From: Solibacillus sp. FSL H8-0538
Lineage (GTDB): Bacteria > Bacillota > Bacilli > Bacillales_A > Planococcaceae
Assembly (NCBI RefSeq): GCF_038003525.1
Contig: NZ_JBBOPI010000001.1
Coordinates: 921,001 to 985,000, forward strand
Length of the DNA stretch: 64,000 nt
Direction: 5' to 3'
Shown here one piece after another: positions 6,597-59,496 of this stretch; position 1 is the stretch's first letter; the number at the start of each line of letters is the position of its first letter. Under the pieces are notes generated by a model. It had not been told where the DNA came from, did not search any database, and saw only the letters and a program-made list of their open reading frames with translations. Position numbers and translations under genes: made by a program.

Positions 6597-7643
6597 ATGA
6601 AATTTTTTTCAAAAGGGGCCATTATTGGAATCATCATTGTTGGTTTTTTAATGCTCTATCGGTTGGATTCTTATGTTATGAAGCCTGGTCATGCTTATAA
6701 TGTGAGTGACTTTATTACGATTCAAAATGGAGATGAGGATGACGAAGGCTCATTCAGTCTTATGACAGTATCCTTGTCACGCGCAACCCCTTTTACGTAT
6801 ATGATTGCACAGTTTAAAGAATATGAAGAAATCATGGAATTAGACTCGGTTCGTCAAGAGGAAGAGGATGATGAAGAATATAATGTGCGTCAGTTAAAAT
6901 TAATGACGGATTCACAGTTTAATGCTTCTTATATAGCTTTTTCAAAGGCTGGGCTTGATTATAGCATTACGTATAAAGGCGTTTTTGTACTAAATGTTCT
7001 GACAGGTGGAGCAGCGGATGGCGTATTAAAGCCAGGCGATGAAATTGTAGAAATTGACGGGGAGCGTATTAAGCAGCAGGCGATGCTCGTTGAACGATTA
7101 AATAATAAAGCAGTAAATGATGAAGTAAAGCTAGTAGTTGATCGAAATAATAAATTAATTGATAAAACGTTAACGTTAAAAGAAATTCCTGATAGTGATG
7201 GCCGAATTGGGCTAGGAATTACTTTTACAGAGAGTAAATCGATTAAAACGGATCCAAAAGTAAATGTCAAAACAGAAGATATTGGTGGGCCATCTGCAGG
7301 CTTAATGTTTACCCTTGAAATGTTAAACCAATTACTTGACGAGGACTTAACGCATGGCTATTTGATTGCAGGTACGGGTGAAATGAATGAGGCTGGTACG
7401 GTTGGTCGTATTGGGGGCATTGAGAAAAAAATTGTAGCTGCTGACAAAGATGGTATGGAAATCTTCTTTGCGCCAGACGACGAAATAACAGAAACGATGC
7501 TTAAATACAACCCAAACATCGTCTCAAATTATGAGGCCGCAGTAAAAACTGCTAAACAACTAGGTACTTCAATGAAGGTTGTGCCTGTTAAAACGATTGA
7601 TGACGCTCTTGATTATTTAGCGTCACTACAACCGAAAAATTAA
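6597..7643 (+). CDS. ylbL: YlbL, membrane-anchored PDZ-Lon-type serine protease
   Basis: 348 residues. Layout: membrane anchor at residues ~5-22; acidic stretch ~45-100; PDZ domain ~120-205 (GVFVLNVLTGGAAD, PGDEI); C-terminal Lon-type catalytic domain with the nucleophile in GGPSAG (Ser near residue 230) and the general-base Lys in GGIEKK (near 277). In B. subtilis YlbL helps clear the cell-division inhibitor YneA after DNA damage. The ATG at 6597 has GGAGGTG about 8 bases upstream, better than an in-frame GTG at 6585 that lies within that site. Its stop codon overlaps the stop of the convergent tmcAL. Confidence 0.9.
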   Translation: MKFFSKGAIIGIIIVGFLMLYRLDSYVMKPGHAYNVSDFITIQNGDEDDEGSFSLMTVSLSRATPFTYMIAQFKEYEEIMELDSVRQEEEDDEEYNVRQLKLMTDSQFNASYIAFSKAGLDYSITYKGVFVLNVLTGGAADGVLKPGDEIVEIDGERIKQQAMLVERLNNKAVNDEVKLVVDRNNKLIDKTLTLKEIPDSDGRIGLGITFTESKSIKTDPKVNVKTEDIGGPSAGLMFTLEMLNQLLDEDLTHGYLIAGTGEMNEAGTVGRIGGIEKKIVAADKDGMEIFFAPDDEITETMLKYNPNIVSNYEAAVKTAKQLGTSMKVVPVKTIDDALDYLASLQPKN

Positions 7644-9811: not shown

Positions 9812-9853
9812 AAAGGCTAGAAGAGAGACCATGGCTCTCCTCTAGCCTTTTTC
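9812..9853 (+). terminator. Terminator after rpmF
   Basis: A stem of about 16 bp with one mismatch (AAAGGCTAG...CTAGCCTTT at its base, 9812-9850), then a T-rich tail. Confidence 0.82.
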
Positions 9854-9982: not shown

Positions 9983-10140
9983 CAACGACTGACTGACTAA
10001 CATCCTGTACAAATGGAGCTAGCCTAAAATCGCCACGTCCTGTGGCAACGACTGACTGACTAACATCCTGTACAAAGGGAGCTAGCCTAAAGTCGCCACG
10101 TCGTGTGGAAACGGCTAGCTGACCGACGTCGTGTCGGCCT
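9983..10140. repeat. 63-bp tandem repeat (2.5 units) carrying small hairpins
   Basis: Units at 9983-10045 and 10046-10108 are nearly identical; a third, partial and more diverged unit covers 10109-10140. Each unit holds a CCAC-(5)-GTGG type hairpin; the third has CCGAC-(5)-GTCGG at 10123-10137. The element at 58710-58830 shares its order of motifs. Because 63 is a multiple of three, a spurious minus-strand frame with a repeated 21-residue peptide runs through it. It occupies most of the 444-bp gap between rpmF and the hydratase gene. Confidence 0.85.
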
Positions 10141-10236
10141 GAATATTCAATTAATTCACTTGTCAAACGTGTGATCGTTCGCTACTATAAATAGTGATAT
10201 GTGTTATAGTACGATAATTTCAAAGGGGTGGACAAG

Positions 10237-25233: not shown

Positions 25234-25294
25234 TTTCACCCAAAATGCGGATGGGGCCAACAACAGGATGTTGGTCATCGCAACTTGGGTGAAA
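25234..25294. repeat. Long nested palindrome between murD and spoVE
   Basis: Outer arms TTTCACCCAA (25234-25243) and TTGGGTGAAA (25285-25294) enclose GATG/CATC and an inner GGCCAACA (25255-25262) with TGTTGGTC (25269-25276) hairpin. No T run follows, so it is not an ordinary terminator. The full gap is 205 bp. Confidence 0.75.
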
Positions 25295-25420
25295 ATGATT
25301 TAGCTGTGCGATAGCAACAAATGTTTTTGCTGTGTAAAAGCAAAGAGACAGCTAAAAAACGGCGCAAATGGGATTTTCTAAAATGCTGAAGTAGAAAGGA
25401 TTGTCACACTGACTCATCAG

Positions 25421-58710: not shown

Positions 58711-58830
58711 GCGGATGTCACAGATTTTGAAAGGAATTAGTGGATGTTAGCCTAATTTCGTTGCATTTATGCGACGGCTGCTAACTGACCTGCATCACGC
58801 AGGCCCAAGACAATTCAAAATCTAGACGCC
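58710..58830 (+). repeat. Structured intergenic element between yloC and gmk, related to the 63-bp repeat
   Basis: Ends are inverted: GGCG...AGATTTTGAA near 58710-58731 and TTCAAAATCTAGACGCC at 58814-58830. Inside are TTAGCC/GGCTgcTAA, the hairpin CGTTGCAT/ATGCGACG (58759-58776) and CCTGC-ATCAC-GCAGG (58789-58803). The order TAGCCTAA - hairpin - ACGGCT - CTGACC - hairpin - GGCC matches 10077-10140. Confidence 0.75.
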
Positions 58831-58848
58831 AATTACGCCGAGGTGTAA

Positions 58849-59496
<648 letters not shown>

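Follow-up and report, generated by a model that had tools for sequence, protein, structure and literature searches.

Bacillaceae-1 (RF01690) elements of Solibacillus sp. FSL H8-0538: a covarying fold and its repeat carriers

Two structured sites in a 64-kb window

The window, by which we mean the whole stretch analysed, comprises 64,000 nucleotides (C1:921001-985000) of the 3.93-Mb genome of Solibacillus sp. FSL H8-0538, which is assembled in two contigs; by reading, C1 apparently starts at dnaA. Site A is flanked by rpmF and an enoyl-CoA hydratase gene, and site B by yloC and gmk, all gene names being readings of the open reading frames. A sequence-only reading had described site A as tandemly amplified and site B as single with inverted ends. 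Tandem Repeats Finder (TRF) reported an array of period 63 with 2.1 copies and 94% matches at 9983-10113, which by reading reaches about 10139 once the diverged last unit is counted, and site B is enclosed by the arms AGATTTTGAA and TTCAAAATCT, in agreement with both descriptions (Table 1).

Table 1. Features of sites A and B in window coordinates
Feature	Position	Strand	Basis
Truncated further unit (3' half) at the start of the site A array	9983-10007	+	TRF array, period 63, read against the unit
Site A, first core unit; first hairpin intact (loop GTCCT), second decayed	10008-10070	+	RF01690 48.4 bits; R1 54.5 bits (R1 trained with the neighbouring unit)
Site A, second core unit with terminal GGCC; both loops GTCGT	10071-10139	+	RF01690 63.7 bits; R3 66.9 bits
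Site B insertion of about 150 bp in the yloC-gmk gap (approximate ends)	58711-58860	+	Gap length 168 nt in Solibacillus, against 13 nt (G018) and 16 nt (G013)
Site B, left inverted arm AGATTTTGAA	58722-58731	+	By reading; same arms at C1:1208534, C1:3222008, L181 and L186
Site B, core of 68 nt	58736-58803	+	R3 43.1 bits, E 5e-7; below Rfam detection
Site B, right inverted arm TTCAAAATCT	58814-58823	+	By reading and flank comparison

The second unit of site A matches the Rfam family RF01690 (Bacillaceae-1) at 10071-10137, well above the cut-off of 35 bits. In the genome scan the first unit (C1:931008-931071, window 10008-10071) also exceeded this cut-off. Its second hairpin is decayed, with four of five pairs non-standard, and model R3 (see below) gave no match for 10008-10070. 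In this detail the first unit differs from the account given for the tandem site. Judged by loop sequence, the first unit nonetheless has GGA in both loops on the opposite strand.

For site B no Rfam match was obtained, even at E<=10. Its outer arms are common to two other copies in the genome, at C1:1208534 (RF01690, 55.3 bits) and C1:3222008 (35.2 bits), and it is flanked by ATTGAATA and ATTGAAAA, a candidate target duplication recognised by eye only.

A hairpin with a T-run is found 3' of rpmF at about 9813-9852 (terminator-like by reading; the terminator scan called none), and a promoter-like site is found downstream of site A at 10160-10188 (one found by the scan against 1.6 expected in shuffles). 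The TTGTCAAAC of this promoter-like site also precedes the same gene in the relatives at loci L300 and L301. Because site A is positioned between these two features, read-through transcription of it is not expected. Elsewhere the window harbours a T-box leader (RF00230, 37968-38234, plus strand, 106.9 bits, cut-off 93) and two more short tandem repeats, at 25293-25343 and 7104-7150, with periods of 26 and 21, respectively.

A covarying fold and its folded strand

Both sites had been proposed to form one structured family. The 40 training sequences of model R3 included neither window site nor the 68-nt copies of the site B subfamily from the same genome; one training copy, L181, has arms of the site B type, but the arms were not modelled. 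R3 detected both sites in the window, site A at 10071-10137 (E 6.7e-12) and site B with the values given in Table 1, and its next match in the window had an E-value of 0.73. The R3 E-values are rough, yet the gap to the next match is wide. Model R1 includes both window sites, so that its scores are circular for them, and R3 is the fair test. Together with the RF01690 match at site A, these results establish the proposed kinship and go beyond it: sites A and B are copies of Bacillaceae-1, a family already catalogued in Rfam.

The two sites have a common core of 67-68 nt. Of the shared elements that had been listed in the same order at both sites, ACGGCT is three positions out of register between the sites in the alignment. 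The comparison of the second hairpins, with equal stem length and loop size and both sides of the stem changed together, was correct. In RF01690 the architecture consists of a basal stem enclosing one hairpin, followed by a second hairpin and a GGCC end. When 41 distinct copies, including both window sites, were aligned on this fold, 92.5% of the 697 cells were paired, compared to 26.5-40.7% when the partner was slid. Changes on both sides were observed in 13 of 17 pairs, double changes occurred in 153 cells (shuffled mean 48), and the covariation score was 0.571 versus 0.211 in shuffled alignments. Two statistics were weaker: shuffling reached the observed number of pairs with double changes in 37 of 500 cases and that of pair types in 349 of 500. 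The Bacillaceae-1 fold covaries and is maintained through paired changes. According to the sequence-only reading, unpaired stem changes in other copies would speak against a family; the stems mostly stay paired. The reading had also taken the paired changes as a sign of selection on structure. Paired changes and a kept fold are indeed observed, but a mobile element that preserves its own fold is something different from a host function, and paired changes can also arise by correction between hairpin arms.

The accessible text of Gardner and Eldai (PMC4333381) proposes CsrA binding for the reverse complement of Bacillaceae-1 and reports uncertainty among its discoverers about the strand. The copies could accordingly be a small RNA expressed from the opposite strand that sequesters CsrA, with two hairpins whose GGA loops bind the protein; the published motif, as given in that text, matches the reverse complement. 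Among 103 distinct copies, A-C combinations, which are G-U on the opposite strand, outnumbered G-U combinations by 53 to 25, in a count restricted to non-duplicate 67-nt matches with no more than three other mismatches, and to which a few lineages contributed, mainly at positions 11, 12 and 56. An earlier count of 47 distinct rows, including the misregistered rows L106 and L123, gave 24 A-C and 17 G-U. Moreover, of 78 matched copies, 54 scored higher with a reverse-complement model and 21 lower, with a mean difference of 0.68 bits (first 60 of 120 loci, among the matches listed, leaving out four matches with differing coordinates). Wobble count and model scores both point to folding of the opposite strand, with the changes stemming from few lineages. 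Folding energy was rejected as a strand test: of 179 distinct copies, 169 had the stabler fold on the opposite strand, yet so did 180 of 180 once the stems were forced to Watson-Crick pairs. Since the forced stems give the same strand difference, the folding z-scores of site A (-2.67 for the plus and -4.95 for the minus strand) were set aside.

The distribution of csrA is in part consistent with such a role. Read off by hand, copies occur in 181 of 224 csrA-positive and in 10 of 26 csrA-negative genomes; in a smaller sample none of nine csrA-negative genomes had carried a copy, and the larger sample showed exceptions. The elements are thus not limited to genomes with csrA. No csrA match was found in G097 (at least 19 copies, 2 contigs), G106 (at least 19 copies) and G073 (seven copies), all of them 100% complete, and in such genomes, rich in copies but without a csrA match, the CsrA idea can be tested directly. 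The loops fit less well: among 43 copies of 67 nt in the Solibacillus genome, GGA is present in both loops in only two, in one loop in 39 and in neither in two, and GGA is missing from both loops of site B and of the second site A unit. Furthermore, the Bacillaceae-1 loop has five bases (AGGAY), whereas the usual CsrA loop has six. A role in CsrA binding may be ancestral, but it does not account for the copies in this genome, and we regard CsrA sequestration as an unlikely explanation of the elements.

Copies in the genome and in relatives

As the sequence-only reading had suggested, the genome was searched with a structure-aware model, and other copies do exist: RF01690 gave 58 matches at E<=1, of which 54 exceeded the cut-off. 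Across 25 genomes of the family the number of copies ranged from 0 to 54. A further sample from other genomes, obtained with a pattern that leaves the stems almost free, contained 166 copies in 120 fetched loci (among the matches listed). Here, 110 of 119 core clusters were situated outside open reading frames of at least 110 aa and nine inside (among the matches listed). Relative to their neighbours, the 110 clusters were oriented in the same direction in 43 cases, opposite in 33, convergent in 18 and divergent in 16 (among the matches listed), which shows no preference. One weak core match was found in the plasmid collection, and among viral contigs a core was present on one contig.

At both window junctions the core is confined, among the loci examined, to that of Solibacillus, another finding beyond the earlier reading. 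The yloC gene was located in 25 of 41 genomes, and no core was found beside it in any of the 24 relatives' loci (R1; one further match with E 0.54). For ylbN, located in 38 of 41 genomes with loci fetched for 30, none of the 29 relatives' loci had a core beside ylbN-rpmF (R3; one further match with E 0.53). Both copies are absent from the matching places in the relatives sampled. This is a comparison between genera; because the nearest relatives sampled belong to other genera, the absence cannot separate a recent from an old gain. The short yloC-gmk gaps of G018 and G013 are empty orthologous sites, with ends that are not base-exact, from which the gain at site B amounts to about 150 bp (Table 1). 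When 13 of the gaps at these ylbN-rpmF loci, including that of Solibacillus, were inspected, the one in G014 was found by reading to contain a coreless palindromic repeat. An ortholog scan among the fetched loci yielded 21 rows (among the matches listed), several of them same-species pairs or unlike gaps, and no base-exact empty site among these rows. In the pairs L246/L229 (rnjA-ktr) and L259/L211, the gap is shorter on the side without the core.

These data bear on the idea that the element acts in cis, as a conserved RNA or as a boundary element, and is retained at certain gene junctions. The strong covariation speaks for such an element, as do cores in the same gap across genera, between dnaI and thrS (L206, L101) and between rplQ and ecfA (L193, L224). 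This could reflect a conserved function, although the repeats surrounding the cores in the shared gaps are different; these gaps are also possible insertion hot spots. Against a junction element, neither window junction has a core in the relatives examined, the cores have no preferred orientation to their neighbours, and transcription is not expected to read through site A. We consider this explanation quite improbable.

In some loci several cores are close together. Close inverted pairs were observed in L271 (7848-8005), L242 (234-377), L237 (5807-5949), L227 (5979-6114), L152 (6330-6474) and L162 (911-1046), and direct arrays in L153, L254, L259 and L178. In L180, L197 and L227 (Amphibacillus cookii), the core is followed by extra partial copies of its own second half. 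Hairpin units in arrays and close inverted pairs are also a feature of REP/REPIN-like elements moved by a Y1 transposase of the RAYT or IS200 type. The Solibacillus genome has three Y1 matches. However, no Y1 match was found in 7 of 21 element-bearing genomes, on which ground a Y1 or RAYT transposase was rejected as the general mobiliser; mobilisation by such an enzyme seems very improbable.

Carriers of the core

In the Solibacillus genome the copies are carried by interspersed repeats, some of which are derived from IS1182. At least 30 copies fall into seven groups (G1-G7, set by hand) with long shared flanks. The 16-nt end AGGGCACTGAAAAAGT was found at 84 places in this genome with up to two mismatches, compared to two places for the reversed control. 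Seven pairs of this end are spaced by about 1,870 bp, and the first pair encodes an IS1182-family transposase within the fetched stretch (NF033551, 294.9 bits, cut-off 270). The leader of this IS1182-type insertion sequence contains a GC-rich palindrome. In one group of copies the core is located at the tip of the palindrome in the transposase sense; in another, the same palindrome contains the core in reverse (arm score 25 versus 11 direct and 7.7 shuffled). Inversion between the arms could explain the two orientations. By reading, IS1182-type ends surround high-copy elements, several copies residing inside elements with the ends of the full insertion sequence, and transposase remains, detected as an exact 12-mer of the IS1182 end, are present within 700 nt of 9 of the 58 copies. 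In the window, the IS1182 end motif was not found with up to two mismatches, and neither window site has such ends. IS1182 remains were found near none of the 166 copies from other genomes (among the matches listed), and IS1182 as a general carrier has no support outside the Solibacillus genome.

Versions of the carriers that lack the core were found as well. A coreless match across the junction (E<=1e-6) was obtained for 127 of 224 queries (the 58 Solibacillus copies and the 166 others among the matches listed), some of these being artefacts inside arrays. By reading, three clean coreless arm types exist in the Solibacillus genome (L069/L086, L085/L086/L007 and L083/L091), with 93-94% identity in the best cases, and the coreless versions there include IS1182 transposon leaders; further clean cases are L165, L254, L189, L159 and L156. 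In the clean pairs, the stretch of the empty carrier that takes the place of the core in the filled one is about 6-14 nt long. A position of the core always within a hairpin loop was rejected as a general rule, since only 16 of 123 copies with distinct flanks had immediate inverted arms above the 95% null level (five above the 99% level).

Instead of a fixed RNA gene, the Bacillaceae-1 core is likely to represent, here and probably in related genomes, a module of small interspersed repeats. The palindromic IS1182 leader, shorter elements bounded by IS1182-like ends and the AGATTTTGAA/TTCAAAATCT repeat of site B would be among its several unrelated carriers, with others elsewhere, and insertion of the carrier would multiply the core. 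Site A would exemplify the solitary or tandem cores into which older copies would decay. The core may enter or leave a carrier as a unit, and its fold may be kept since some protein or replication step needs it. Movement of the core itself from one carrier to another is likewise inferred; empty and filled carriers are paralogs, so that a lost core or exchanged hairpin tips would produce an identical picture. For the copies examined, neither a clear target duplication nor a base-exact empty site was obtained.

A bolder version of the module reading is tentative and, on present evidence, rather doubtful. It holds that the core is a structured mobile module of about 70 bp whose fold is recognised by some mechanism, in no need of a Y1 transposase or CsrA, that lets it enter, leave or swap between hairpin repeats of unrelated kinds. 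With the same reserve, the palindrome of the IS1182 leader would be one of its carriers, in both orientations. If this were true, an abundant bacterial small-RNA family in Rfam would be mobile DNA. In case the copies are largely passengers of small repeats, the annotation of small RNAs across these bacteria needs correction. Empty and filled versions of one carrier within one genome also provide a good system for the spread of elements without genes.

Likenesses to several known systems can be drawn. Bacillaceae-1 RNA (RF01690; Weinberg 2010, PMC2864571) has its sequence, two hairpins and basal stem in common with the elements described here, site A scoring above the Rfam cut-off; it is listed as a candidate RNA, whereas here it is found in repeat carriers and is lineage-specific. 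Rfam does not detect site B, and at both sites the loops deviate in part from UCCU. In PMC9029176 RF01690 figures as one of the most abundant families of small RNAs, and the part of that source available names no function for it. The bcr repeats of Bacillus cereus (PMC6542083), from a related group, are likewise small and interspersed; they measure 100-400 bp, number in the tens and show features of mobility, and the likeness of bcr1-bcr18 to Bacillaceae-1 drawn here is one of description. The accessible texts on REP/REPIN (PMC3116915, PMC3733652) likewise describe hairpin units in arrays and inverted pairs, from which Bacillaceae-1 differs in not depending on a Y1 transposase. MITEs of the IS1182 family resemble several Solibacillus copies, which have the ends of the full IS1182-type insertion sequence, but not the two window sites, which have no such ends, nor the copies of other genomes, near which no IS1182 remains were found among the matches listed. 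BOX elements also consist of hairpin units, with a tandem inner unit between outer arms. Nostoc small dispersed repeats are very small elements nested in other repeats as well; compared to them, the Bacillaceae-1 core is larger and has a covarying fold of several hairpins. In the accessible literature on Bacillaceae-1 we found no statement that the family is mobile; a search of the literature for a link between IS1182 and Bacillaceae-1 gave none, and a search of the repeat-element literature gave no title on Bacillaceae-1.

The copies are unevenly distributed along the chromosome. None of the 51 chromosomal copies above the cut-off is located in the origin region, which extends from C1 3413451 through the origin to 605804 (933 kb, 25% of C1). 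The probability of this void is about 3e-5 under uniform positions and 0.0012 when clusters within 20 kb are merged. Of the 84 IS1182-type end motifs, ten are present in this region.
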